Assembly (NCBI GenBank): GCA_030525445.1
Contig: JAUNEQ010000006.1
Coordinates: 1-33,135, forward strand
Direction of reading: 5' to 3'
Source of the DNA: Coriobacteriia bacterium
GTDB lineage: Bacteria > Actinomycetota > Coriobacteriia > Coriobacteriales > Eggerthellaceae
Length of the DNA: 33,135 bases
Shown piece after piece: positions 6,916-27,559 of this stretch. The position numbers and the translations under genes are program-made. The first letter of the stretch is position 1; every line of letters begins with the position of its first letter. The notes under the pieces were generated by a model that did no database searches, was not told where the DNA came from, and saw only the letters and a program-made list of their open reading frames with translations.

Positions 6916-8781
6916 ATGTCAGAACAGAATACGAAGGCCTCGCGCGCAGATGAAAGTCGCGCGGCGGCGAAGCGTGCGAACGCAGAAAAGGCTTCGCAGC
7001 ATAATCGCACGCAGTACTACAAGCACGTTCAGCTTGAACGCGAGCGTCCGCATATCTCACGCGGCGGCGTCGGTGCCCAGAGGGTTCGCGAAGCCGACCG
7101 CAGGCGTCATTTCGACACGCCGGACAAAGATCCCAACGCCGTGCTGAAAGTCATCCCGCTCGGCGGCCTCGATGCCATCGGAAAGAACATGACGGTCTTC
7201 GAATGCGGGGATGACATCGTGCTCGACGATGCCGGATGCATGTTCCCGGACGACAGCCATCCGGGCATCGACCTCATCTTGCCCGACTACTCGTACCTGC
7301 TGCAAAACGCCGACAAGCTGCGCGGCATTATCATCACGCACGGGCACGAGGACCACACGGGCGCGTTGCCCTACCTGCTGAAGGACCTCGACGAGGAAGT
7401 CGCGATCTACGGCACGAAGATGACGCTCGGCCTCATCGAGGGCAAGTTCAAGGAACACCGCGTCAAGAATGCCCGACTCGTGGAGATCAAGCCGGGCGAG
7501 CAGGTCAAGCTCGGCTGCTTCACGTGCGATTTCTTCTCGGTGAACCATTCCATCCCCGGTTCCGTGGGCGTGTTTTTCCGGAGCCCTGCGGGCAACGTGC
7601 TTCACACGGGCGACTTCAAGCTTGACCAGTCTCCCATCGACGGCGTCTACACCGATTTCGGCGCCATTGCCCGGTTTGGCGAGATAGGCGTCGACCTCAT
7701 GCTTTCGGATTCCACGAACGCGACGGTCACCACCTTCACGCCGAGCGAGGCCGAGGTGGGCAAGGCCCTACGTCGCATCATCAGCCAGGCTACCGGCCGC
7801 GTGGTCATCGCGTCGTTCGCAAGCCATATCCACCGCATGCAGCAGATCTGTGATGCGGCAATCGAAAACGGCCGCAAGGTCGTCGTGACCGGGCGTTCGA
7901 TGGTGCAGAACACCGACATCGCGCGTCGCCTCGGATACCTGCATATCTCGGATGATGACCTCATCGACGCATACGACATCAAGGGCGTCCCGCCCGAGAA
8001 GATTGTCGTGATGTGCACCGGCAGCCAGGGCGAGCCGCTTTCCGCGCTTGCGCGCATCGCCAGCGGCAACCACAAGACCATCAGCCTTGAAGACGGCGAT
8101 ACCGTCATCATTTCCGCGACGCCGGTCCCCGGCAACGAGAAGGCCGTCACGAAGGTCATGAACCTGCTCGCGAAAGTGGGCGCCGACGTATGGGACAAGC
8201 GCCGCGACCTCGTCCACGTTTCCGGACATGGCGGCGCCGAGGAATTGAAGATCGTGCTCTCGATTGCGCGTCCCCGCGCATTCGTCCCGGTTCATGGCGA
8301 GGCGATTCACCTGCGGGCACACGCGAAACTCGGAGAGCTCACGGGTGTGCCCGCCGAGAACATCTTCATCATGGACAACGGAGACACCATCGAGCTTTCG
8401 AGCAAGGGCGTTCGACTGGGTGAGACCGTGCAGAACGGCGTTGTCCTCGTCGATGGCCTGCGTGTGGGCGATACGAGCCAGGACGTGCTCGATGAGCGCA
8501 ACAGCCTTGCCGCGCAGGGTTTCGCGACCGTTGCGTGCGCGATTGACCGCATGCACAACCAGATCATCGGCAACGTCATGGTCGAGATGCATGGCATCAC
8601 GAGCGATGCCGAGCTTGTCGATGAGGCCCAGACGCGCGTTCGCCGCGCTTTGCAGGGCGCGCTCGACGACGATCTTGGCACAAAAGAAATCAAGAAGGCG
8701 TGCCGCAATGCCCTGCTTCGGGTATTGTGGGAAGAGATCAAGCAGCGCCCCATGGTCATCGTGAACGTCTTGGACGTGTAG
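6916..8781 (+). CDS. rnj: Ribonuclease J
   Basis: RNase J is a metallo-beta-lactamase/beta-CASP ribonuclease with endonuclease and 5'-3' exonuclease activity in mRNA decay and rRNA maturation. The 621-residue protein carries the metal motif HGHEDH at residues 142-147, after IPLGGLDAIGKNMTVFE. The beta-CASP region and the downstream SGHGGAEE and PVHGEAIHLRAH motifs are typical of the family. The first ~75 residues form a basic, Arg/Lys-rich, low-complexity extension before the catalytic fold. It probably contacts RNA or partner proteins. The ribosome site is AAGGAAGAA. Downstream gene 8811-9212 follows after only 29 bases and is probably cotranscribed. Confidence 0.96.
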   Translation: MSEQNTKASRADESRAAAKRANAEKASQHNRTQYYKHVQLERERPHISRGGVGAQRVREADRRRHFDTPDKDPNAVLKVIPLGGLDAIGKNMTVFECGDDIVLDDAGCMFPDDSHPGIDLILPDYSYLLQNADKLRGIIITHGHEDHTGALPYLLKDLDEEVAIYGTKMTLGLIEGKFKEHRVKNARLVEIKPGEQVKLGCFTCDFFSVNHSIPGSVGVFFRSPAGNVLHTGDFKLDQSPIDGVYTDFGAIARFGEIGVDLMLSDSTNATVTTFTPSEAEVGKALRRIISQATGRVVIASFASHIHRMQQICDAAIENGRKVVVTGRSMVQNTDIARRLGYLHISDDDLIDAYDIKGVPPEKIVVMCTGSQGEPLSALARIASGNHKTISLEDGDTVIISATPVPGNEKAVTKVMNLLAKVGADVWDKRRDLVHVSGHGGAEELKIVLSIARPRAFVPVHGEAIHLRAHAKLGELTGVPAENIFIMDNGDTIELSSKGVRLGETVQNGVVLVDGLRVGDTSQDVLDERNSLAAQGFATVACAIDRMHNQIIGNVMVEMHGITSDAELVDEAQTRVRRALQGALDDDLGTKEIKKACRNALLRVLWEEIKQRPMVIVNVLDV

Positions 8782-10232: not shown

Positions 10233-10336
10233 GATGGGACAGAATGCCCCGCAGCATATGGGACACCCTTGGATTCGCTGCAGTTTCGCTGACAGATAAA
10301 TGGTGTCCCATATGCTGCGGGGCATTCTGTCCCATC
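10233..10336. repeat. 35-bp perfect inverted repeat, REPIN-like element
   Basis: The arms 10233-10267 and 10302-10336 are reverse complements at all 35 positions and enclose a 34-base loop. Within each arm the motif ATGGGACA occurs twice (left arm at 10234 and 10258). The size and two-inverted-arm layout fit a REPIN (paired REP sequences) or a small MITE. No transposase gene is present, and I do not see a clear target-site duplication. No long T-run follows, so a plain terminator is unlikely. Confidence 0.8.
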
Positions 10337-10392
10337 CGGCTACCCGGGTGTCTCGTCGCAAAACGAGTGCGTGCGCGTGGGTTTAGTGGGGT

Positions 10393-10423
10393 TTGGTTGC
10401 CTTGAGCGCTCTTGCGGTATACT
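10393..10423 (+). promoter_or_regulatory. Putative ftsK promoter
   Basis: TATACT at 10418-10423 is a good -10 hexamer. The -35 could be TTGCCT (10397, spacing 15) or TTGGTT (10393, spacing 19). Neither spacing is ideal. It lies 46 bases before the TTG start of ftsK. Confidence 0.45.
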
Positions 10424-10469
10424 AACCCGTTAAAACGCAGATGAAACGCAGAATCGCGGGAGTTATCTT

Positions 10470-13004
10470 TTGGCTAACAAACAACAGCAGAAGCAATCGG
10501 GAAAGGCGAATTCGCCGGCGGCGAAGTCGGCGCAGCGTAAGGCGAAGTCGGCGTATTCCGCCGTGTCGCCCTATGAAGACGATGGGTTCGTCGATGCACG
10601 CACCAAACGCGATATTTGCGGGGTCGTTTTCATCGTTTTGGGCATTGCGCTGTTTGCCATGATGCTCATTCCGTCGAAGGCGGTCGTGACCTCCGTCCTT
10701 TCGGAAGTCCTGAGGCTCGCGTTCGGCGCGGGGGCCTATGTGCTTCCGGCGTTCCTGCTGCTCATCGGTTTCAGCTTCATCATTCGCTTCCAACGGCAGA
10801 AAATGCCCACGCGCGTGGCAGTTGGCCTGCTTCTCGTCTTCCTCGCAATTCTGGGTATCATGGGCTTGTTCACGCCCGGTGCAGACATCGCAACGCTGGA
10901 CAAGCTCTTCCTGAAGCAGAATCTCCTTGCGCAAGGCGGCTATGTCGGTGCCGGCATTGCGTGGGTGGGACTCATGTATTTGGGCCTTCCGGTTTCCGTC
11001 ATCGTGCTTGTGGGCCTCATCGTCGTCGCGCTCATGATCATCGGGTTCACGGTGAACCGGCTCATCGACCGCGTGCATCAGATGCGCGACCGCAAGCGCC
11101 TGCACGACAGCCAAGCGGCGAAGAATCCCGACGCGCCCCTCTATAGCAATGGCCAGCAGCCGAAGAAGGGCCTCGTGGGGAGGCGTAAACAGCAACCGGC
11201 GCTTCAGGCCGCTCCTCCAACTATCGGTGGCTTCGATGAGATGCCCGACCGGGCGAACAGGCGCACGATGCGCCTGGGCTCGAGTCCTTCGAGCCAGAGC
11301 GCTCAGCCGACCAGGCGCTCCTCGTCGCGTTCGGCCAAATCACGCGAAGACGTCATCGATGCCGAGGTGCTCGATATCTCGTCGGCGAAGACGCAGCGCT
11401 TCGACGATTCGGCTCCCGCCGCATCGCTCACCCGAAAGCTCGGCTCCAACGACCAGCCGGCGCCGGCGAAACGCAAGCGCGCCGCGAAGAAACCTTCGAG
11501 CACGGCGGCGACGCTGGCGTTCCCGCAGGCGACCGAAGGGTTCGAGCTTCCTTCCATGACGCTCCTGAAGCGTTCGAGCGCCCGCGACAAGAAGCGTGAG
11601 AGCGAGGAGAGCCTGCAGGACACCGCAGAGCTCCTGCAGCAGACGCTCGAGGATTTCGGCGTGCCGGTCGATGTCGTCGGATGGGTTGCCGGCCCGACGG
11701 TCACGCTGTTCAAGATAGACTTGCCCTCGGGCATCCGCGTGAACAAGATCACCAACCTCACCGATGACATCGCCCTCGCGCTGGCGGCGCCCGGCGTGCG
11801 CATCTTTGCGCCTATCCCGGGCACGAATTACGTGGGCGTCGAGGTGCCGAACAAGGTGAGGCAGAACGTGTACCTCGGCGACATCCTGCCCGCCGCGAAA
11901 CCCGGTCCGCTCCAGGTGGCCATCGGCGAGGATGTCGAAGGCCACAAGATGGTGTTCGACTTGGCCAAGATGCCGCACTTGCTGGTCGGCGGCACCACCG
12001 GTTCCGGCAAATCCATTTCCATCAACTCTATGATCATGTCCATCCTCATGCGCGCGACACCCGATGAGGTGCGCTTCATCATGATCGACCCGAAACGCGT
12101 CGAGTTCGCCCCGTACAATGGCATTCCGCATCTGTACGTGCCGGTTGTGACCGAGCCGCGTGAAGCGGCGAGCGCCCTGTCGTGGGGCGTTGCCGAGATG
12201 GAGCGCCGATTGAAGGTGTTCAGCAAGGTCGGTGCCCGTGATATCGGGCAATACAACACGAAGGTCCATCAGGGCGTGCTCGACGAAGAGGGCGGCGAGG
12301 CGGCCAAGCAAATGCCCTACATCGTCATCGTCATCGACGAGCTCGCCGACCTCATGATGAACGTCGGCAAGGATGTGGAATTCAGCATCAGCCGCATCGC
12401 GCAGCTGGCTCGTGCGGCGGGCATCCACATGATCGTCGCGACGCAGCGCCCGTCGACGAATGTGGTCACCGGTCTCATCAAGGCGAACATCACGAACCGT
12501 ATGGCGCTCACGGTGGCCTCGGGCATCGACTCGCGCGTCATCCTCGACACGACCGGTGCCGAGAACCTCATCGGCAACGGCGACATGCTCTTCGGCAAGC
12601 CGGAATTCCCCAAGCCGGTGCGTCTGCAAGGGTGTTTCGTGGGCCCCGATGAGATCGAGGCGGTTGTCAACCACCTCAAGGGACAAGGCGAGCCCGAATA
12701 CCACAACGACATCCTGAAGACCAACCTCATGAGCATGGGCACCCCGGTTTCGGGGAGCAACGGCTCGGCGAGCAACGAGGACCCGCTGCTCTGGGATGCG
12801 GCGGAGCTGGTCGTTGGTGCGAAGTTCGGGTCGACCTCGAACATCCAGCGCCACTTCAGCATAGGATATTCACGAGCAGGCCGTATAATGGACATGCTCG
12901 AAGAGAAGGGCGTGGTGGGGCCAGCAAATGGCAGCAAGCCGCGAGAGGTTTTGGTCGACGAGCTCGAGCTCGAGACCATCAAGGCCTTCGAGGCGAACGA
13001 TTAG
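10470..13004 (+). CDS. ftsK: DNA translocase FtsK/SpoIIIE
   Basis: FtsK is a septum-anchored hexameric ATPase that pumps chromosomal DNA and helps resolve sister chromosomes at division. The 844-residue protein has a charged N-terminus and four membrane segments within roughly residues 50-195. A Pro/Ser/Arg/Lys-rich linker follows. The motor domain has Walker A GTTGSGKS at 508-515 and Walker B IVIVIDE ending near residue 624. The C-terminal gamma winged helix (AAELVVGAKFGSTSNIQRHFSIGYSRAGRIMDMLEEKG) reads KOPS/SRS-type polarity sequences. The start is TTG, chosen for the MANKQQQ N-terminus and the GGGAG ribosome site. It is followed after 23 bases by the RodZ-like gene. Confidence 0.96.
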   Translation: MANKQQQKQSGKANSPAAKSAQRKAKSAYSAVSPYEDDGFVDARTKRDICGVVFIVLGIALFAMMLIPSKAVVTSVLSEVLRLAFGAGAYVLPAFLLLIGFSFIIRFQRQKMPTRVAVGLLLVFLAILGIMGLFTPGADIATLDKLFLKQNLLAQGGYVGAGIAWVGLMYLGLPVSVIVLVGLIVVALMIIGFTVNRLIDRVHQMRDRKRLHDSQAAKNPDAPLYSNGQQPKKGLVGRRKQQPALQAAPPTIGGFDEMPDRANRRTMRLGSSPSSQSAQPTRRSSSRSAKSREDVIDAEVLDISSAKTQRFDDSAPAASLTRKLGSNDQPAPAKRKRAAKKPSSTAATLAFPQATEGFELPSMTLLKRSSARDKKRESEESLQDTAELLQQTLEDFGVPVDVVGWVAGPTVTLFKIDLPSGIRVNKITNLTDDIALALAAPGVRIFAPIPGTNYVGVEVPNKVRQNVYLGDILPAAKPGPLQVAIGEDVEGHKMVFDLAKMPHLLVGGTTGSGKSISINSMIMSILMRATPDEVRFIMIDPKRVEFAPYNGIPHLYVPVVTEPREAASALSWGVAEMERRLKVFSKVGARDIGQYNTKVHQGVLDEEGGEAAKQMPYIVIVIDELADLMMNVGKDVEFSISRIAQLARAAGIHMIVATQRPSTNVVTGLIKANITNRMALTVASGIDSRVILDTTGAENLIGNGDMLFGKPEFPKPVRLQGCFVGPDEIEAVVNHLKGQGEPEYHNDILKTNLMSMGTPVSGSNGSASNEDPLLWDAAELVVGAKFGSTSNIQRHFSIGYSRAGRIMDMLEEKGVVGPANGSKPREVLVDELELETIKAFEAND

Positions 13005-18657: not shown

Positions 18658-19287
18658 ATGGGCAAGCTTGCGACGATAGAGCGCTTGCAATCCATGATTG
18701 ATGCGGTTTCCGCCCAAGACGAAACGGCATTCGACGTTGTTTCGGGCGGCTTGCGCGATGCAAGCCGTCCGAAAGCAACGCGGAAACGTCGAAAGTCACC
18801 TTCCCCAGACGATGACGGCATACCGCCAGCAAAGAAGGCGTATAACCGCGTCATCGAGCTTTGCGGCTACCACGATTTCTCGTGCGCGAAAATGCGTGAG
18901 CGGCTCAAACGCGAAGGGTTGCCCGCTGATGCTGTCGAGGATGCGATTGAAAAAGCCGTTCGAATTGGGCTCATCGATGATTTGAGATGGGGAGAGATGC
19001 GGGCGAGCGCGCTCATGCGGCGTGGCATGGGCAGGATGGGCATTGTCCGTGAGCTGAAGGAAAACGGAATAAGCGCCCACGACATCGATGGGTGGCCAGA
19101 AGAGTACGAAGAGCGTTTCGGGGATGAATTGCAGCGCGCACTTGGCGTGCTCGAAAAGAATCCGCCACGTTCGAAGAACCTCCGCGCTTCGGCATACGGG
19201 AAACTCATGAGAAAGGGATATGATTCTTCTGTGTCAGCGCAAGCGAGTGGTATATGGTTTGCGCGACAATACGAAGGCAACGAATAA
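18658..19287 (+). CDS. recX: Regulatory protein RecX
   Basis: RecX binds RecA filaments and limits or modulates their activity. The 209-residue protein has the helical-repeat core from ~residue 62 (AYNRVIELCGYHDFSCAKMRERLKREGLPADAVEDAIEKAVRIGLIDD is typical). The match continues with ARSALMRRGMGRMGIVRELKENGIS-like spacing. Residues ~37-55 are a basic linker. The ATG has only a weak ribosome site, consistent with lower expression than recA. Its position 25 bases behind recA indicates cotranscription and SOS induction. Confidence 0.9.
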   Translation: MGKLATIERLQSMIDAVSAQDETAFDVVSGGLRDASRPKATRKRRKSPSPDDDGIPPAKKAYNRVIELCGYHDFSCAKMRERLKREGLPADAVEDAIEKAVRIGLIDDLRWGEMRASALMRRGMGRMGIVRELKENGISAHDIDGWPEEYEERFGDELQRALGVLEKNPPRSKNLRASAYGKLMRKGYDSSVSAQASGIWFARQYEGNE

Positions 19288-19294
19288 TAAGACA

Positions 19295-19309
19295 TCTGAC
19301 ATGTTATGT
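19295..19309. promoter_or_regulatory. Small palindrome before a glycosyltransferase gene
   Basis: TGACAT-GTT-ATGTCA is a perfect 6+6 inverted repeat, 28 bases before the start of the glycosyltransferase gene and just after recX. It could be an operator, but the protein is unknown and the site is short. Confidence 0.35.
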
Positions 19310-19337
19310 CATGATATCGAAAGCCCGAGGAGGAAGC

Positions 19338-20279
19338 ATGCCCAAAGTCTCCGTTATCGTGCCGATGCATAATAGCGCCGACTTGCTTGCCGAAACGCTC
19401 GCGAGCATCGAGACGCAAACACTAGAAGATATAGAGATCGTCTGCGTCGATGACGCGTCGCAAGATTCGACCATGGCGATATTCGAGCTCTTTGCGAGTG
19501 ATGATGATCGTTTCAAGCTCATTCGCTTCGAAGAGAACCAGGGCGTTTCCGCAGCGCGGAACACGGCTATACAGGCCGCTTCCGGAGATTACCTCGCGTT
19601 CATGGATGACGATGACTGGTATCCGCGAAGCAACACGCTCGAGAAACTCTATGAGGCAGCGGCGAGTCACGATGCCCTCATCGCCGGTGGCTCTTTCAGC
19701 GAATTCGACAATCGCACGAACAAGGTGACGGAAGACTACACGGGCAAGGGCCATCTATCCTGCTTTACCTTCACGCGGGAGGGGCGCATCGAGTATTCCG
19801 ACTGGCAAGGTGATTTCGGATTCCAGCGCTTCATCTTCAAGCGAGATTTCATCATAGAAAACGAAATCGAGTTCCCCGCTCTCATCCGTCATGAGGATCC
19901 GGTTTTCTTGGTGAAGGCGATGGTGGCTGCGGGATGGTTCTATGCCATTCCCGATGTGGTGTACCGTTACCGGTTCCATCACAAACCGCGCATGCTTGGC
20001 GAAGAGTCCGTTGACGATGCGTTCAAGGCTATCGCAGAGATACTCGCCATCGCTGCCAACAATGGGTATGACACGCTTCGCGATTATCAAATCGAGCTCC
20101 TCAAGGTGTATTCGGCCGATTCCTTCGGCCTCGTCTTCAACGAGGCAAAGCTTTTGGGCGCACGGGCGAAAGCGTTGCGGAGCATCACCTCTTCCAAGCC
20201 GTTCCGATTGCTTGCCGACGTCGCGGGCTCTTACAAGACGATGCTCGGCGACGTGCTCAAGCAGTACAGCCTGGACTAA
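19338..20279 (+). CDS. Family 2 glycosyltransferase
   Basis: A 313-residue GT-A fold enzyme of the WcaA/GT2 type, which moves a sugar from a nucleotide donor to a surface-glycan intermediate. The N-terminus KVSVIVPMHNSADLLAETLASI and VCVDDASQDST bind the nucleotide sugar. The metal/donor site is DDDD at residues 90-93, after ASGDYLAFM. No membrane segment is obvious, so it probably acts at the inner face of the membrane. I use ATG 19338 after a GAGGAGGAAG ribosome site; an upstream in-frame codon at 19254 would lie in recX. The neighbouring flippase and the two GT2 genes at 25.0 and 26.1 kb suggest one polysaccharide pathway. Sugar specificity is unknown. Confidence 0.88.
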   Translation: MPKVSVIVPMHNSADLLAETLASIETQTLEDIEIVCVDDASQDSTMAIFELFASDDDRFKLIRFEENQGVSAARNTAIQAASGDYLAFMDDDDWYPRSNTLEKLYEAAASHDALIAGGSFSEFDNRTNKVTEDYTGKGHLSCFTFTREGRIEYSDWQGDFGFQRFIFKRDFIIENEIEFPALIRHEDPVFLVKAMVAAGWFYAIPDVVYRYRFHHKPRMLGEESVDDAFKAIAEILAIAANNGYDTLRDYQIELLKVYSADSFGLVFNEAKLLGARAKALRSITSSKPFRLLADVAGSYKTMLGDVLKQYSLD

Positions 20280-20290
20280 ACCTTCAGGAA

Positions 20291-20315
20291 CCTATGGGGT
20301 TGTCCCCGTGATAGG
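20291..20315. other. Short hairpin between convergent genes
   Basis: CCTATGGGG-TTGT-CCCC plus ATAGG can pair with a small bulge. It lies between the convergent glycosyltransferase and flippase genes and has no T-tract. A very similar hairpin (TATGGAG-TTGT-CTCCATA) lies at 21923-21940, which suggests two copies of one short repeat. Confidence 0.45.
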
Positions 20316-20335
20316 CCATATGGTTGGCTTTCACG

Positions 20336-21838
20336 CTATCGGCGTACGAGGGATTTCAGGATGCCTTTCTCGTACGCGTTGAAGGAGAACGCCCAACAGA
20401 TGGCCACGTAGAACACCACGTATGCAATCAGGCACACGATGAGGATGGCCCATGACCCGATTGCAGGAAGCAGCAAGAGGCGTACGAGGAAAACGACGAC
20501 GAACAGCGCAAACGGGGCGGCAGCGATTCGGCAGATATCACCCCAGAAACGTGGGATATCGATACCCGTGCGCTTCCAATAGAACCAATTCATGATGAGG
20601 CCGCTTCCGATGAACAGCGCAAAGGCGGTCGAAACGGCGGCGCCGATGATTCCCATGACCTGAACCAAGGCGATGGTGGCGGCGATGTTGATCACCGCAA
20701 CCGCGAAATAGATGCCAGCGCGGAAGCCATAGGTGTTGTTCACGCGCAGGATGGTGAGCCCGACGTTTTGGATGAGGTCGATGGTGAACGGTATCATGAT
20801 GATGATTGCGATGAGATACGCGTCATGGAATCCTTCGCCCGCCCACAGGCGTATGAAATCGTCTCCGAAGACGACGAACCCCGTGAGCACGGCCCATAGC
20901 ACGAGGAAAGAGATTCTGCCGATCCTGACGAACAGGTCCGATAGCGTTTCGTCATGTTCTTCGCCCCGGTAGATGCGGGTGACTTTGGGAAGGAACACCG
21001 AAGAAACCGCGATTCCCAAGGGCATGTAGCACATGAAGATCTGCGAGGCGATGCCGTATACGGCGACGCTTGCGGTGCCGAAGAAATACCCCAGGATGAG
21101 CTGGTCGGTGCGCCAGAAGATCTGGTCGGCGATCGTCGCGAGCAGGATGGCGCCCGAGAACACGAGCAACGCCCGTGCGAGCGAGCGGTCGAATTCGTGG
21201 AGTCGCACCTTGATTCCCAGACGGCGGCTTGAATAGCCGCGACGTATGACCGCTTCGATGGCGACGGTGATGAGCTGGACGGTCACCGCGGAAATGGCAT
21301 AGGGATAGATGAAGACGGCAAGCGCGATCGCGAATGGCTGCAGCGCGGTGAGCACAACCTGCAATCCGTACTGGAAGGTGAAGCGTTCATGCGCCTCGAT
21401 CGTCGCGCTGTAGATCGAGTTGTTCAAGACGATGATGACGTTCACGATGAGTATCACGAGCATCCAGGAAAGCTCATGGAGCTCGGCGGCCGTGAGCGAT
21501 TCGGCGTACACGGCATTCGCGATGGCGATAAGGGCAATTCCCACCAGTATGGCGAAGGCGGAAAGGATGCGGTACAAGATGCGGGAGACCCCGAGCACGT
21601 TTTCGGCCCGGTCGTATTCTTTCAGCGCGAGGTGCTTGTTGTAGTAGCGCTGGACGGCCGCGGCAATCGTCGAATTCATGATGAGCAGGTACGCCATGAC
21701 CGAACCGACCAATTGATACAGGCCATATTCGTTCGTGCCGATGGTGCCCAGGAGCAAGGGGACATAGATAAGGTTCACCACCACCTGCACGGCCATGTAC
21801 AGGTAATTCACCAATGCTCCTCTAGAACGCTCGCTCAC
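20336..21838 (-). CDS. Polysaccharide flippase (Wzx/MATE-like)
   Basis: A 500-residue integral membrane protein with about 12-14 predicted membrane segments. It resembles the oligosaccharide flippases of the MOP superfamily that move lipid-linked glycan units across the membrane. Typical features are the N-terminal RGALVNYLYMAVQVVVNLIY segment with GTNEYGLYQLVGS, and the FWRTDQLILGYFFG stretch midway. I place the start at GTG 21838 because AAAGGAA precedes it at good spacing; TTG 21859 would add seven residues. It is the only minus-strand gene in this part and is divergent from rny. It probably serves the surface glycan built by the nearby glycosyltransferases. Confidence 0.9.
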   Translation of the reverse strand: MSERSRGALVNYLYMAVQVVVNLIYVPLLLGTIGTNEYGLYQLVGSVMAYLLIMNSTIAAAVQRYYNKHLALKEYDRAENVLGVSRILYRILSAFAILVGIALIAIANAVYAESLTAAELHELSWMLVILIVNVIIVLNNSIYSATIEAHERFTFQYGLQVVLTALQPFAIALAVFIYPYAISAVTVQLITVAIEAVIRRGYSSRRLGIKVRLHEFDRSLARALLVFSGAILLATIADQIFWRTDQLILGYFFGTASVAVYGIASQIFMCYMPLGIAVSSVFLPKVTRIYRGEEHDETLSDLFVRIGRISFLVLWAVLTGFVVFGDDFIRLWAGEGFHDAYLIAIIIMIPFTIDLIQNVGLTILRVNNTYGFRAGIYFAVAVINIAATIALVQVMGIIGAAVSTAFALFIGSGLIMNWFYWKRTGIDIPRFWGDICRIAAAPFALFVVVFLVRLLLLPAIGSWAILIVCLIAYVVFYVAICWAFSFNAYEKGILKSLVRR

Positions 21839-22225
21839 GGGTTCCTTTCTTCCTTGCAACTGCGATTACTCTATCGCTTTTGGCAAGAAGGCGAGCCAAG
21901 GGGCAGTGTCCGGGCATCCAGTTATGGAGTTGTCTCCATATTTGACGGGAATGCGAACCATCAAAATGGGGGCATAGCCGGGTATTTGCGTGGAATAGCG
22001 ATATGCACCAAGCTTTGTGGACTCATAGTGACTATCGGGAAATCCGGACGGCGATGGCAATTTGATGGGGTAGTATTAATTCGCCATGAGTATACATACC
22101 CGGGTAACGGGTATTCAGATATAGACAACTGAATAGCACTACCCTTGGATAATTGTATGCTCATGCCAGTTGACCTGGCATTTTTTATGCGCATTACGAG
22201 CGCACAGAAACATAGGAGCGTATTG
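21839..22225. other. 387-base divergent spacer between flippase gene and rny
   Basis: It is less GC-rich than its surroundings. It contains hairpin 21923-21940 (TATGGAG-TTGT-CTCCATA followed by TTT), a cluster of short palindromes at 22095-22133 and a terminator-like hairpin at 22163-22186. It must hold promoters for both divergent genes, but I see no consensus pair. A 64-codon frame on the minus strand (21866-22060) has no recognisable protein character. Confidence 0.6.
22163..22186 (+). terminator. Terminator-like hairpin in the rny leader (possible attenuator)
   Basis: ATGCCAG (22163-22169) pairs with CTGGCAT (22175-22181) around a 5-base loop and runs directly into six T. It lies only 40 bases before the rny start and in rny orientation. 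It could attenuate rny, or it could end a short leader RNA. Confidence 0.55.
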
Positions 22226-23818
22226 ATGGAGATCATATTTGCTATCGTCGGCATCATTGTCGGCGTTATCGCGGGCGTCCTTGTGGCGCGATCGGTGGGG
22301 GCGCAGTCGGTGAAAAACACCGCGGCCGAAACCGAGCGCATGATGCAGGATGCACGCGAGAAGGCCGAGATCTTGCAGCGCGAGAAGCTGCTTGAGGCCA
22401 AGGACGAAATCACGAAGATGCGCGAGAAGGCAGAGGCCGAACACAGCGCGCGCCTGGACAAGGCACGCGAGCAGGAAAAGAGCCTGAATGCCCGCGAGCG
22501 CTCCCTCGACAAACGCAGCGACTCGCTCGATTCCCGCGAACATCGCCTCTCGAGCATGCAGGGGCAGGTGGAGAAGCGCGAGCGCGACCTCGAGCGCGAC
22601 CAGCGTGCACTCGACGACCTGAAGCGTGATTACGAGGACCGCCTGGATGAAGCCGAAGAGCTGAAGGAGCAGATCAACGTCCGCCTTGAGCAGGTGAGCG
22701 GCATGACCGCCGATGAGGCGAAGGAAGAGCTGCTCGAGAACCTCCGCAGCGAGGTTGCGCTCGAGTCCGCGGCCATCATCCGCGAATCCGAAAACCGCAC
22801 CAAGCTCGAGGCCGATAAGAAAAGCCGCGAGATCTTGAGCCTCGCGATCCAGCGCCTGGCGAGCGAATACACCACGGAGAACACCGTGCATGCTGTCGCG
22901 TTGCCGAGCGATGACCTGAAGGGCCGCATCATCGGTCGCGAGGGTCGCAACATCCGCTCGTTTGAGCAGATCACGGGCGCGAACCTCATCATCGACGATA
23001 CCCCCGAGTGCGTCACGATCAGCTGCTTCGACCCGGTGCGCCGCGAGATTGCCCGCATCACGATGGAGAACCTCATCGCCGATGGCCGCATCCACCCGGC
23101 GCGCATCGAGGAGATGTTCGAGAAGGCGACCAAGTACGTCGACAAGCAGGTGCAGGAAGCCGGCGAGCAGGCTGGCTTCGAGACGGGCATCCACGACCTG
23201 CATCCCGAGCTCATCACGACGCTTGGCAAGCTGCGCTACCGCACATCGTACGGCCAGAACGTGCTCGACCATTCCCGCGAGGTCGCATACCTTGCCGGTT
23301 TCATGGCGAGCGAGCTCGGCCTCGATCCGATCCCGGCAAAGCGCGCGGGCCTGCTTCATGACATCGGCAAAGCCGTGACCCATGAGGTTGATGGCAGCCA
23401 CGCGGTCATCGGTGCCGACCTGGCACGCCGCTTCGGCGAGAAGCCGGAGATTGTGCATGCCATCGAGGCGCACCACAACGACATCGAGCCCAATTCAGTG
23501 TTGGACGTGATCACGCAGGCCGCTGACGCTATCTCGGCGGCGCGTCCCGGCGCACGCAAGGAAACGCTCGATGCCTACATCAAGCGTCTCGAGAAGCTCG
23601 AGGAGATTGCGAACAGCTATGAAGGCGTCGACCGCACGTTTGCCATCCAGGCTGGCCGCGAAGTGCGCGTCATGGTCGTGCCGGAGATCGTCGACGAAGC
23701 CCAGACCACGGTGCTCGCGCATGATATCGCGAAGCGCATCGAGAACGAGATGCAGTATCCCGGCCAGGTGAAGGTGGTCGTCATCCGCGAGAGCCGCGCG
23801 ATCGGCATCGCCAAGTAG
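22226..23818 (+). CDS. rny: Ribonuclease Y
   Basis: RNase Y is a membrane-anchored endoribonuclease that starts mRNA decay in many Gram-positive bacteria. The 530-residue protein has an N-terminal membrane anchor (residues ~3-21) and a long coiled coil of charged heptads (~30-190). A KH domain follows, with GREG in [17 protein letters not shown], then an HD domain with the catalytic pair His378-Asp379 in [10 protein letters not shown] use ATG 22226 after TAGGAG at seven bases; earlier in-frame starts would disrupt the anchor. PNPase and RNase J are also encoded in this window. The next gene, a GHKL ATPase, follows after eight bases. Confidence 0.97.
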
Positions 23819-23826
23819 CAACCACG

Positions 23827-24918
23827 ATGGCCGCTGCCGACCTCGAAGGTTTCATAGGGGAAGTAACAGGGGAGAGCCACCTGCGGGTCGAAGAAGACCT
23901 CGGAGGTGGCTTTGTCCGTCTGCGCACCTCTGAGGCCGAACGCCGTCAGGCCCAGCAGGATATCCGCTGTTCAGAGGATGTCGTGCTCGAGCTCTTGCGC
24001 AATTCTCGCGATGCGGGTGCACGCATGATTTGCATCGCGACGAATCGGGAGGGATCGCTTCGCAACATCACCGTCATCGATGACGGCGGGGGAATTCCCC
24101 ATGACATGTGGCAAAAGGTATTCGAACCGCGTGTGACCAGCAGGCTCGATTCGTTCCATGACGATCGGTGGGGCGTGCACGGCAGGGGCATGGCGTTGTT
24201 CTCCATCGCAAGCAATGCCCGCGCCGCCCAGGTGGTTTCGTCCGGCGAAGGCCTGGGGACCGCGCTCACGGTGCAAACCGATGTGGCATCCTTGGGAGAA
24301 AAGACCGACCAAAGCACGATCCCCCGACTCATCATCGATGAGTCGGGAAGGCAAATCGTCCGCGGCCCCAGGAACATCAACCGCATTGTCATGGAATTCA
24401 CCCTTGTGCAGCGCGGTTCCTGCATCGTTTACCTGGGGACCCCCAACGAAGTGGTCGCCACGCTTGTCGACTACGGAAGCCGCGTGCTGAGCGCGTTCGA
24501 GCGGGCGTTTGCGCAATCGGAAGATGGTTTCCCGGTTTGTCTTCGTCCGGCATTTGCGGCGACTCCCGCCGAGCTTGCGGAAGCAGCCGCCGAGCTTGGC
24601 TTGAGCATTTCGGAACGCAGTGCCCGGAGGGTGCTAGACGGCGAGATAGCCCCGCTTCCCCCATTCGCAAGCGTGGTGGCTGAAGCGTCACGCGTGCAAC
24701 GAGAGCCGCATAAGAATGCGCATGCGCGCGTGAAGGGCGACCGGGTTCGTGTTTCCGCCGAGGACCGCGACGAGTTTGCCGAACGTGTATGCGAGGCATA
24801 CGGTTCGCTGGCACAGAAGTACTATCTTGATGCAGAGGTGAACCCGGCCGTACGCGTCGCGCAAGATGGCCTTCATGTGTTCATCCCGTTCATTCCAGCA
24901 GATGATGGGATGGAATAG
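23827..24918 (+). CDS. Uncharacterised GHKL (HSP90/MutL-type) ATPase
   Basis: A 363-residue protein whose N-terminal ~180 residues are a GHKL ATP-binding domain. The N-box is ELLRNSRDAGA (Glu55, Asn59, Asp62), motif 2 is DDGGGIP (85-91) and motif 3 is GVHGRGM (116-122). The N-box resembles that of MutL/MORC proteins more than that of histidine kinases, and no H-box is present. The C-terminal half (~195-363) has no domain I recognise. No membrane segment is visible. It lies eight bases after rny, so it is probably translated from the same message, which suggests a link to RNase Y. MutL is another relative, but length and C-terminus do not fit a MutL. Function unknown. Confidence 0.82.
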   Translation: MAAADLEGFIGEVTGESHLRVEEDLGGGFVRLRTSEAERRQAQQDIRCSEDVVLELLRNSRDAGARMICIATNREGSLRNITVIDDGGGIPHDMWQKVFEPRVTSRLDSFHDDRWGVHGRGMALFSIASNARAAQVVSSGEGLGTALTVQTDVASLGEKTDQSTIPRLIIDESGRQIVRGPRNINRIVMEFTLVQRGSCIVYLGTPNEVVATLVDYGSRVLSAFERAFAQSEDGFPVCLRPAFAATPAELAEAAAELGLSISERSARRVLDGEIAPLPPFASVVAEASRVQREPHKNAHARVKGDRVRVSAEDRDEFAERVCEAYGSLAQKYYLDAEVNPAVRVAQDGLHVFIPFIPADDGME

Positions 24919-25000
24919 CCGTACTGGGCGAAAATGGCTGCGAGCCGATAGCGAAGAGCTGGCCTAACGCACGGAAAACGATTATGCGAGGAGGATGCAT

Positions 25001-26020
25001 ATGGAGCCACGGGTGAGTGTCATCATTCCCATCTATAACGTGGAGCGATATATTGCCGAGTGCATCGAATCGCTCTTGCGTCAGACGTTCACCGATTTCG
25101 AGGCCATTTGCGTCGATAGCGGGTCGAGCGATCGGTCGATTGAGATTGCGCGGGAGGTGGCCGGAGACGATCCTCGCTTCGTCTTCACGGAAAGCGGCGA
25201 CAACGGGCAGTCAGTTGCACGCAACCGCGCCCTGGACATCGTGCGCGGTGAGTACCTGCTCAACCTCGATTCCGATGACTACTATGTGCCCGATACCCTC
25301 GAGCGCCTGGTGAAAGAAGCGGATGCTTCCTCCCTGGACATGCTCTACTTTTCCGCCAAGACCTTTTACGAAACGGACGACCTCTCGCGGACGAACCCCG
25401 AGCGTCAGGATAACCGCCCGGACATTCCCGGCGTGCTGAGCGGGCCCGACATGTACGTTCAGATGGAGAAGACCGGGGCGTTTCGGCCGTCGGCCTGCAT
25501 GTTCATGTTCAAGCGATCGTTGGTTGAGGAAGCGGGATTGCGGTTCGTCGAGGGAATCATCCACGAGGACCTTCTGTTCACGATGATGATCGTCCCCCTT
25601 GCGAAGAAGACGGCGTTTTTGAACGAGACGTTTTACATGCGCCGCATGCGTGCGGGGTCGACGATGACCACCGCGCGCGGCGTCCGCAACATTCACGGCC
25701 ATCTTGTCGCCTCCATGCATATGGAGGCGTGGCTGCAACAGCATGCGGGGGAATACTCGGCCGAATTCTGCGATTGGTATGCGCATCGCATTCACCACAC
25801 GTGGATGCTCGTTGCACAGGACGTGCGCGACCTAAGCTGGGAAGAGATCGATGCGTTTCGTGACAGCCTGCCGATTGGCGAGCGAATCGCGCTCGATCTG
25901 CATGGGATTGAGCCGGCCTCGTCGCTCGGCGAGGTGCTCGATTCGACGACGTTCAAGGTTGGGCATGCAATGCTCGCATTGCCAACGTACATTAAGGACC
26001 GGTTGGCGAATCACGGATAG
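25001..26020 (+). CDS. Family 2 glycosyltransferase
   Basis: A 339-residue GT-A glycosyltransferase. The N-terminus VSVIIPIYNVERYIAECIESLL and the following ICVDSGSSDRS are the donor-binding part, and DSDD at residues 90-93 is the metal site. The length and C-terminus resemble capsular or exopolysaccharide transferases; no membrane segment is clear. I use ATG 25001 because GAGGAGG lies six bases upstream; an ATG at 24995 is the alternative. The gene is on the same strand as rny and the ATPase with a gap of 82 bases, so readthrough is possible. The acceptor sugar cannot be told. Confidence 0.88.
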   Translation: MEPRVSVIIPIYNVERYIAECIESLLRQTFTDFEAICVDSGSSDRSIEIAREVAGDDPRFVFTESGDNGQSVARNRALDIVRGEYLLNLDSDDYYVPDTLERLVKEADASSLDMLYFSAKTFYETDDLSRTNPERQDNRPDIPGVLSGPDMYVQMEKTGAFRPSACMFMFKRSLVEEAGLRFVEGIIHEDLLFTMMIVPLAKKTAFLNETFYMRRMRAGSTMTTARGVRNIHGHLVASMHMEAWLQQHAGEYSAEFCDWYAHRIHHTWMLVAQDVRDLSWEEIDAFRDSLPIGERIALDLHGIEPASSLGEVLDSTTFKVGHAMLALPTYIKDRLANHG

Positions 26021-26043
26021 CGGCGGGCCTGCAATGGGCTCAT

Positions 26044-26064
26044 GGGGACAACAATAGGGGACAA
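26044..26064. repeat. Direct repeat of GGGGACAA
   Basis: GGGGACAA occurs at 26044-26051 and 26057-26064, 13 bases apart, in the spacer between two glycosyltransferase genes. The core matches the REP-like palindromes at 315-365 and 10233-10336. It is too short for a firm call. Confidence 0.4.
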
Positions 26065-26082
26065 GGTACGTAAGGGGAGATT

Positions 26083-27045
26083 GTGTTAGATAGGGGAATC
26101 AGCTTAGACGAAGCGGAAATCGCGGTTCTCATACCGTGCTATAACGAAGCGGTCACCATCGCGAAGGTCGTCGATGACTTTCGACGGGTGCTTCCGGGGG
26201 CAACGGTGTACGTGTACGACAACAATTCTTCCGACGATACCTCACGGATTGCGGGCGAGCATGGTGCCGTGGTGCGCCGAGAGACGCGACAAGGCAAGGG
26301 CAATGTCGTTCGACAGATGTTGCGCGATATCGACGCCGATGCCTATATTCTCGTCGATGGGGATGACACGTACCCTGCAGAGGACGCGATAAAGCTCCTC
26401 GAGCCCATTCTCGCCGGCGAGGCTGATATGACGGTGGGCGACCGGCTTTCCAACGGCAGCTATGCCGAGGAGAATGGAAGGCGGTTCCATGGGTTCGGAA
26501 ACAACCTGGTCCGCTCGCTCATCAAGCACATCTACGGGTTCGAATTCAATGATGTCATGACGGGTTACCGTGGCTTCAGCCGCATCTTCGCGAAAACGCT
26601 TCCCATCGAATCGCCTGGGTTCGAAATCGAAACCGAGCTCTCCATCCACGCGGTCGACAAGCGGTGGCGCATCAAGGAGATTCCCATCGAGTACCGGGAC
26701 CGTCCCGAGGGTTCCTCTTCCAAGCTGTCCACGTTCAGCGATGGCCTCGCGGTGCTCCGCATGATCGGAAGCCTGTTCAAGGATTACCGCCCGCTTGCGC
26801 TTTTCAGCTCGATCGCCGCGATCTGCATCATCATCGGTCTGGCAATCGGTCTTCCCGTCATCTGGGAATTCAGCGTCACCGGTCTCGTCGAACGGTTCCC
26901 GTCCGCATTGCTTGCGACGGCGTTCGTGGGCACTGGTTTCCTCGCCGAAGCATGCGGGCTCGTGCTCGATACGACGGTGAAATCATCGCGCAAGGAATAC
27001 GAGCTCATGGTGATCGCGGCTTACGATCGATACGGGAGGCTGTAA
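26083..27045 (+). CDS. Family 2 glycosyltransferase with C-terminal membrane segments (DPM1/GtrB-like)
   Basis: A 320-residue GT2 enzyme of the polyprenol-phosphate sugar synthase type. AVLIPCYNEAVTIAKVVDDF and VYVYDNNSSDDT form the nucleotide-binding part, and DGDD at residues 92-95 is the metal site. GNNLVRSLIKHIYGFEFNDVMTGYRGFSR and the EIPIEYRDRPEGSSSKLST stretch are typical of this subgroup. Two membrane segments lie at ~238-260 and ~273-295. Such enzymes usually load a sugar onto undecaprenyl phosphate for later transfer outside the cell. Start is GTG with AAGGGGAG upstream. It belongs with the nearby flippase and transferases. Confidence 0.9.
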   Translation: MLDRGISLDEAEIAVLIPCYNEAVTIAKVVDDFRRVLPGATVYVYDNNSSDDTSRIAGEHGAVVRRETRQGKGNVVRQMLRDIDADAYILVDGDDTYPAEDAIKLLEPILAGEADMTVGDRLSNGSYAEENGRRFHGFGNNLVRSLIKHIYGFEFNDVMTGYRGFSRIFAKTLPIESPGFEIETELSIHAVDKRWRIKEIPIEYRDRPEGSSSKLSTFSDGLAVLRMIGSLFKDYRPLALFSSIAAICIIIGLAIGLPVIWEFSVTGLVERFPSALLATAFVGTGFLAEACGLVLDTTVKSSRKEYELMVIAAYDRYGRL

Positions 27046-27247: not shown

Positions 27248-27559
27248 GTGGCAAGCACTATGGAAAAGCAGACTATCGGATGCCTGAGGGTGTCCTCGCA
27301 TTCTTCCCCGGCATCGGTGGCTGGCGCCATCGCCGGCATGATCAAAGACGGCTCTCATGTCGATATCCAGGCCGTGGGCGCTGGCGCCGTCAATCAGGCG
27401 GTCAAGGCGATTGCCATCTCACGTGGTTTCCTGTCACCCATCGGCATCGAGATCATCTGCGTTCCGGCGTTTGCCGATATCGTGATCGACGGAGAGTACC
27501 GCACCGCGATCCGCTTCTCGGTAGAGCCGCGCGTTCCTGTCGTGCCGCAGGGCGAATAG
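27248..27559 (+). CDS. spoVS: SpoVS family protein
   Basis: A 103-residue Alba-like small protein of the SpoVS family. The core LRVSSHSSPASVAGAIAGMIK, VDIQAVGAGAVNQAVKAIAISRGF and EIICVPAFADIVIDGEYRTAI is highly conserved. In Bacillus, SpoVS is required at stage V of sporulation and influences septation; in non-sporulating bacteria its role is unclear, and nucleic-acid binding has been proposed. The GTG start follows AGAAGGA at a good distance; ATG 27260 is the alternative. It lies before miaB, as in Bacillus, and after the glycan genes. The Bacillus neighbour ymdB is absent here. Confidence 0.95.
   Translation: MASTMEKQTIGCLRVSSHSSPASVAGAIAGMIKDGSHVDIQAVGAGAVNQAVKAIAISRGFLSPIGIEIICVPAFADIVIDGEYRTAIRFSVEPRVPVVPQGE

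Follow-up and report, generated by a model that had tools for sequence, protein, structure and literature searches.

A MutL-like GHKL ATPase encoded directly behind RNase Y in Coriobacteriia: a candidate ATP-operated partner of the ribonuclease

The gene directly downstream of rny in Coriobacteriia encodes a GHKL ATPase belonging to a real, conserved family that has neither a name nor an assigned role. In many bacteria the decay of mRNA begins with RNase Y, whose known specificity factors come from work on Firmicutes. The best reading of our results, to which we give a probability of roughly one half, is that the ATPase is an ATP-operated factor, or switch, acting with RNase Y. Near-universal in Coriobacteriia and placed behind rny, it is a promising candidate for an ATP-driven factor that assists or regulates RNA decay. 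Searches of the literature for a GHKL or HATPase_c_3 ATPase linked to RNase Y, and for RNase Y in Coriobacteriia, returned no paper on the family, and the single RefSeq record of a Collinsella orthologue that we found labels it merely 'ATP-binding protein'.

The features discussed here are collected in Table 1. "The window" denotes the whole stretch of DNA that was analysed, 33,135 nucleotides from a coriobacterial genome. The preliminary description of this DNA had placed the ATPase open reading frame eight bases behind the gene for RNase Y, and both parts of that statement hold: exactly 8 bases separate the last base of the rny stop codon from the ATPase ATG, and the upstream product far exceeds the TIGR03319 cut-off of 454 bits and carries the RNase_Y_N, KH and HD domains. 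A longer reading frame for rny opens at a TTG at 22145.

Table 1. Features of the rny-ATPase region and of the encoded ATPase (window coordinates; residues numbered from the ATG).
Feature	Coordinates	Strand	Description and basis
rny, RNase Y	22226..23818	+	530 aa from ATG 22226; TIGR03319, 693.5 bits; RNase_Y_N, KH_1 and HD (Pfam)
GHKL ATPase gene	23827..24918	+	363 aa; subject of this study; open reading frame as translated
MutL/TopoVI-like GHKL ATPase domain with N-terminal strap, residues ~34-205	23926..24441	+	AF2 model, VIA, sequence homology
Motif I, Glu55..Asn59	23989..24003	+	No variation in 77/77 aligned homologues
Motif II, DDGGGIP, residues 85-91	24079..24099	+	D85, G87 and G89 invariant in 77/77 homologues
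Motif III, GVHGRGM, residues 116-122	24172..24192	+	Residues checked invariant in 77/77
C-terminal region, residues 206-363	24442..24915	+	Helical domain, low-confidence linker (~291-310), long helix, beta hairpin; no convincing family match
Putative HTH-like segment, residues 247-270	24565..24636	+	Two helices in the AF2 model; invariant Ser262, Arg264, Arg268
spoVS	27248..27559	+	Usual gene next after the ATPase; PF04232, E 4.7e-35; two glycosyltransferase genes intervene in the window

The protein belongs to the GHKL ATPase superfamily, as seen from its Pfam scores, its motifs and its fold. Up to an E value of 1, Pfam returned HATPase_c_3 (PF13589, residues 49-165; 41.1 bits against a cut-off of 25) and HATPase_c (PF02518; 30.5 bits against 26.4, E 5e-7), and no other family. 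All three GHKL motifs had been described as intact, and the alignment bears this out: E55, N59, D85, G87, G89, G116, H118, G119 and G121 do not vary in any of the 77 aligned homologues. In a deeper set of 15 sequences reaching Rubrobacter-like proteins, E55 is found in 14 (Gln replaces it in L144) and the three motif II residues in all 15, while motif III is degenerate in the Rubrobacter-like L182. By analogy with GHKL biochemistry, Glu55 is presumably the general base and Asn59 the Mg site, and the intact motifs predict that the protein binds and hydrolyses ATP. The open reading frame lies far beyond chance, because homologues with E values of 1e-70 to 1e-155 occur in 58 of the 60 genomes searched, the window's own counted.

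The adjacency to rny proved to be conserved. rny lies immediately 5' of the ATPase gene in all 30 relative loci, a count that takes in the window's own, and in all 80 named loci, which are the best of 411 found; the spacing in the latter is -7 to 131 bp, with a median of 10. The same arrangement was found in 19 of 20 representatives of other, deeper families, with spacings up to 545 bp; the twentieth locus ends at a contig edge. Fourteen further loci include nine holding both genes, with rny directly 5' and on the same strand in every case and at most 336 bp away, and five (L169-L173) that have no ATPase gene. In Collinsella the gap is 1 bp, and no terminator-like site was found between rny and the ATPase gene.

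The two genes usually form part of a longer string, cinA-recA-recX-rny-ATPase-spoVS-miaB-miaA. The rny-ATPase pair of the window is flanked by family-2 glycosyltransferase genes and a polysaccharide-flippase-like gene (19254-21859 and 24995-27045), which stand between it and recX at one end and between it and spoVS at the other; the pair itself has no insertion. The string that is split here is compact in most relatives. An interval between miaB and miaA holding mutS-mutL, as in Bacillus, had been brought up for this gene string; it does not occur in the Coriobacteriia loci, where miaB and miaA lie within 150 bp of each other in 72 of the 73 loci showing both. Many deep loci carry between spoVS and miaB a PHP gene resembling RNase RNM or 3',5'-nucleoside bisphosphate phosphatase (in L146 at 7107-7922 on the minus strand, in L153 at 10319-11137 on the plus strand); in L170 and L171, where the ATPase gene and spoVS are missing, the PHP gene directly follows rny. 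Just 5' of the rny start in the window, a terminator-like hairpin followed by T's (22163-22181) could be an attenuator or leader element; the number of such sites in the window is not above chance.

The ATPase gene is also nearly always accompanied by rny across the phylum. Of 197 Coriobacteriia genomes, 195 gave a match and 194 are counted as holding a real family member, since the match in G170 is weak (E 1.5e-4) and is probably a histidine kinase. The family recurs in deep Actinomycetota families, among them one (f40) that we call Rubrobacter-like from its gene content. Of 396 genomes sampled evenly across the phylum, 160 have the ATPase family (E 1e-8) and 263 have rny; as raw counts, with kinship ignored, 157 genomes have both, 3 the ATPase only, 106 rny only and 130 neither. 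The three ATPase-only genomes (G455, G551 and G566) are MAGs, 67-79% complete. A deeper profile run on 30 of the 106 rny-only genomes found no full-length family member; short matches to the ATPase domain appeared in 20 of the 30 at E 0.001, the best at 1.7e-7. The dependence therefore runs one way, the ATPase going with rny in 157 of 160 genomes and rny standing alone in 106. RNase Y itself does not need the ATPase, since many rny-bearing Actinomycetota are without the gene, as is G010 (locus L169), from the same family as the window; this genome, complete at 1.4 Mb, has kept rny-spoVS-miaB and lost the ATPase gene.

In support of a link to RNase Y we count the adjacency, the insertions that spare the pair, the co-occurrence, the 1 bp gap in Collinsella and the absence of an intervening terminator, together with the RNase RNM-like PHP gene downstream in deep loci and the distribution of RicT considered below. 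Adjacency by itself does not point to RNase Y in particular, because the whole string from recA to miaA is syntenic, and adjacency inside such a string is weaker evidence than that of two otherwise free genes. The ATPase could thus serve another process of the string, in translation or tRNA modification with miaB and miaA, or with SpoVS, and be merely co-transcribed with rny. This is consistent with the position of spoVS, which in 72 of the 77 Coriobacteriia loci with enough sequence follows the ATPase gene at no more than 600 bp, and with L170, L171 and L172 lacking both genes near rny. It also fits the evolutionary rates of the seven string genes, compared over 46 of the 53 loci having all seven (from the set of 80): the ATPase covaries with miaB at 0.37 and with recX at 0.33, whereas its value with rny is -0.013, rank 20 of 21 pairs, in a test that is weak because rny is very conserved (tree length 3.7 versus 21). 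Rate covariation thus gives no support to a specific link with RNase Y. On the other hand, spoVS is further off in the window and in L061, L099, L107 and L128, with rny still adjacent; none was found near the ATPase gene in the Rubrobacter-like L144, L175, L176 and L182, all of which still lie behind rny; and G010 has spoVS without the ATPase gene. We consider a role elsewhere in the string unlikely, though it is the likeliest of the alternatives to a partner of RNase Y.

The fold of the protein bears on a second alternative. An AF2 model built from the 77 homologues has a mean pLDDT of 90.4, and the end of the ATPase domain at residue 205 is taken from it. The best solved relatives identified by VIA are N-terminal domains of MutL (B. 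subtilis 9n2k_B, Z 12.3, rmsd 4.3, 153 residues aligned), and topoisomerase VI subunit B (9o0g_D, Z 11.9, rmsd 3.8, 145 aligned) follows within one Z unit. The suggestion that the ATPase part is MutL-like thus stood up, being borne out by the top VIA fold, by the best NCBIfam match and by sequence homology to a Clostridial MutL-like open reading frame (L185), which spans residues 46-154 only. The NCBIfam matches are all partial and far under their cut-offs, the best being to MutL (TIGR00585, residues 48-147; 50.2 bits against 180). MORC had been proposed as a further relative; neither MORC nor HtpG (Hsp90) is in the Pfam list, and in Foldseek TRAP1, an Hsp90, appeared at E about 1e-3, with MORC absent among the matches listed.

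With the N-terminal ATPase of MutL, MLH1 and PMS2 the protein shares the GHKL motifs, a strap-like N-terminal segment and the ATPase fold, but it has a different C-terminal domain, no detected S5-type transducer (no such Pfam match up to E 1, and MutL homology stops near residue 154) and no C-terminal endonuclease, and there is no MutS in its host genome or in those of relatives. Its ATPase part folds like those of topoisomerase VI subunit B and GyrB (Z 11.9 and 10.9, respectively), but the protein lacks topoisomerase domains and has low sequence similarity to them. The ATP-binding fold is common to sensor histidine kinases too, as the HATPase_c match shows, whereas the protein is nearer to HATPase_c_3 and MutL and, in Pfam, has no sensor or dimerisation-phosphotransfer domain.

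We rejected MutS-MutL mismatch repair as the protein's main role on account of the low TIGR00585 score, the missing transducer and endonuclease, and the lack of MutS1; the preliminary idea of a compact MutL does not survive in this form. MutS1 (TIGR01070) was found in 0 of 41 relatives, the window's own genome (82% complete) counted, in a search that was positive in 11 of 14 controls, and MutL over the cut-off likewise in 0 of 41. In a panel of 30 genomes, MutL exceeded the cut-off only in the Rubrobacter-like G243 (two proteins, beside its copy of the ATPase family), and NucS exceeded it in two, both as short partial matches and neither in one of the 11 Coriobacteriia. These results agree with the report of Castaneda-Garcia et al. 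(PMC5290159), in which NucS and MutS-MutL are given as absent from Coriobacteriia, with room left for unidentified pathways, and Rubrobacteria as having MutS-MutL and no NucS.

The protein might then be a diverged MutL-like factor of DNA repair, working in a mismatch-repair or recombination pathway of lineages that have no MutS, MutL or NucS. Its nearest relatives in sequence and fold are MutL N-domains, recA-recX lie upstream, and the gap in the repair repertoire described above would leave a place for it. However, the MutL match is no indication of repair, since topoisomerase VI fits the model equally well, and G243 keeps its family copy alongside two MutL-type proteins. The absence of the transducer, homology that ends near residue 154 at scores far under the curated cut-off, and the tie of the gene to rny make repair distinctly improbable. 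If it were true, it would bear on mutation avoidance in a bacterial class that lacks all three proteins.

A role in defence against phages or other mobile elements was rejected: PADLOC gave one weak hit only (REase_II, E 0.01), no phage record matched, and the core-gene spread of the family argues against it. Three plasmid records matched the family search; one is a Collinsella replicon with the same gene string, the second an annotated mutL, and the third an open reading frame directly behind a MutS-like one, which we read by eye as MutL.

The C-terminal half had been said to match no recognisable family, and we likewise found no convincing match with Pfam, NCBIfam, Foldseek or VIA. Folded alone by AF2, its 158 residues give a pLDDT of 91.7. 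No Pfam family was found in this region of the window protein, Foldseek returned nothing at E 0.001, and the best VIA match (Z 5.5) covers about the last 57 residues; the fold-search negatives apply to families represented among the matches listed. The domain is conserved, and its most constant feature is an S-x-R-x-x-x-R signature, Ser262, Arg264 and Arg268, invariant in 77/77 homologues and in 15/15 of the deep set. From the helix pattern and consensus, residues 247-270 appear to be HTH-like. In the Rubrobacter-like L144, L175, L176 and L182 the protein is shorter and its ATP motifs are partly degenerate, with the Ser/Arg/Arg signature kept and the gene still behind rny. That the protein is an ATP-regulated transcription factor, binding DNA through this helix pair with its invariant signature, is very improbable: Pfam matches to HTH families are found (HTH_20 in 3 of 77 members, HTH_AsnC in 2 of 77), but all are weak (best E 0.025), the region has no fold match, and in the window protein the segment carries a net negative charge.

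For a factor acting with RNase Y, the following mechanism can be envisaged from the fold and the conserved residues. Binding of ATP would bring the lobes of the MutL-type ATPase together as a dimer by way of a conserved strap at the N-terminus (EAERRQA..DIR, residues 36-47), and the closure would move the C-terminal HTH-like domain with its Ser262/Arg264/Arg268. The moved domain could then contact any one of RNase Y, RicT and the substrate RNA and thereby control the site or timing of RNase Y cleavage, and hydrolysis involving Glu55 would reset the switch. Dimerisation, ATP hydrolysis, binding to any of these partners and an effect on RNA decay are what we infer for the protein. The C-terminal region as a whole is net acidic, which is unfavourable to nucleic-acid binding and which we count against the proposal. 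If it is right, the MutL-type GHKL switch would extend to RNA metabolism.

The partners of RNase Y give some room for such a factor. In B. subtilis, a stable complex of RicT with RNase Y is described in PMC10470536 as requiring RicA and RicF. In our 30-genome panel RicT (PSP1) is found in 30/30 and Com_YlbF, the RicA/RicF domain, in 0/30, so that a different partner of RNase Y is plausible in these lineages. The pattern is suggestive only as a pointer to such a partner, and the absence of RicA and RicF is not special, because RicT without Com_YlbF is also seen in control genomes, Thermus and Thermotoga among them. The ATPase would resemble RicA, RicF and RicT of the B. subtilis Y-complex in its proposed role alone, that of an accessory factor; unlike them it is an ATPase encoded beside rny, with no Com_YlbF or PSP1 similarity (Pfam up to E 1, HATPase families only). 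How RNase Y is directed in lineages with rny and RicT and no RicA or RicF is a question that the ATPase would make directly testable. A more specific proposal is that Coriobacteriia and other deep Actinomycetota have recruited a MutL-type ATP-gated clamp for RNA decay, which would replace RicA and RicF and, under ATP control, load RNase Y with RicT or substrate RNA, as an ATP-driven specificity factor; we regard this version as quite unlikely.

The PSP1 open reading frame itself differs in length among the panel genomes. It is long, 447-613 aa, in G000, G003, G005, G007, G021, G038 and G044, which belong to the window's family and order, and 205-356 aa in the 19 panel genomes outside Coriobacteriia, which suggests an extra part on RicT.
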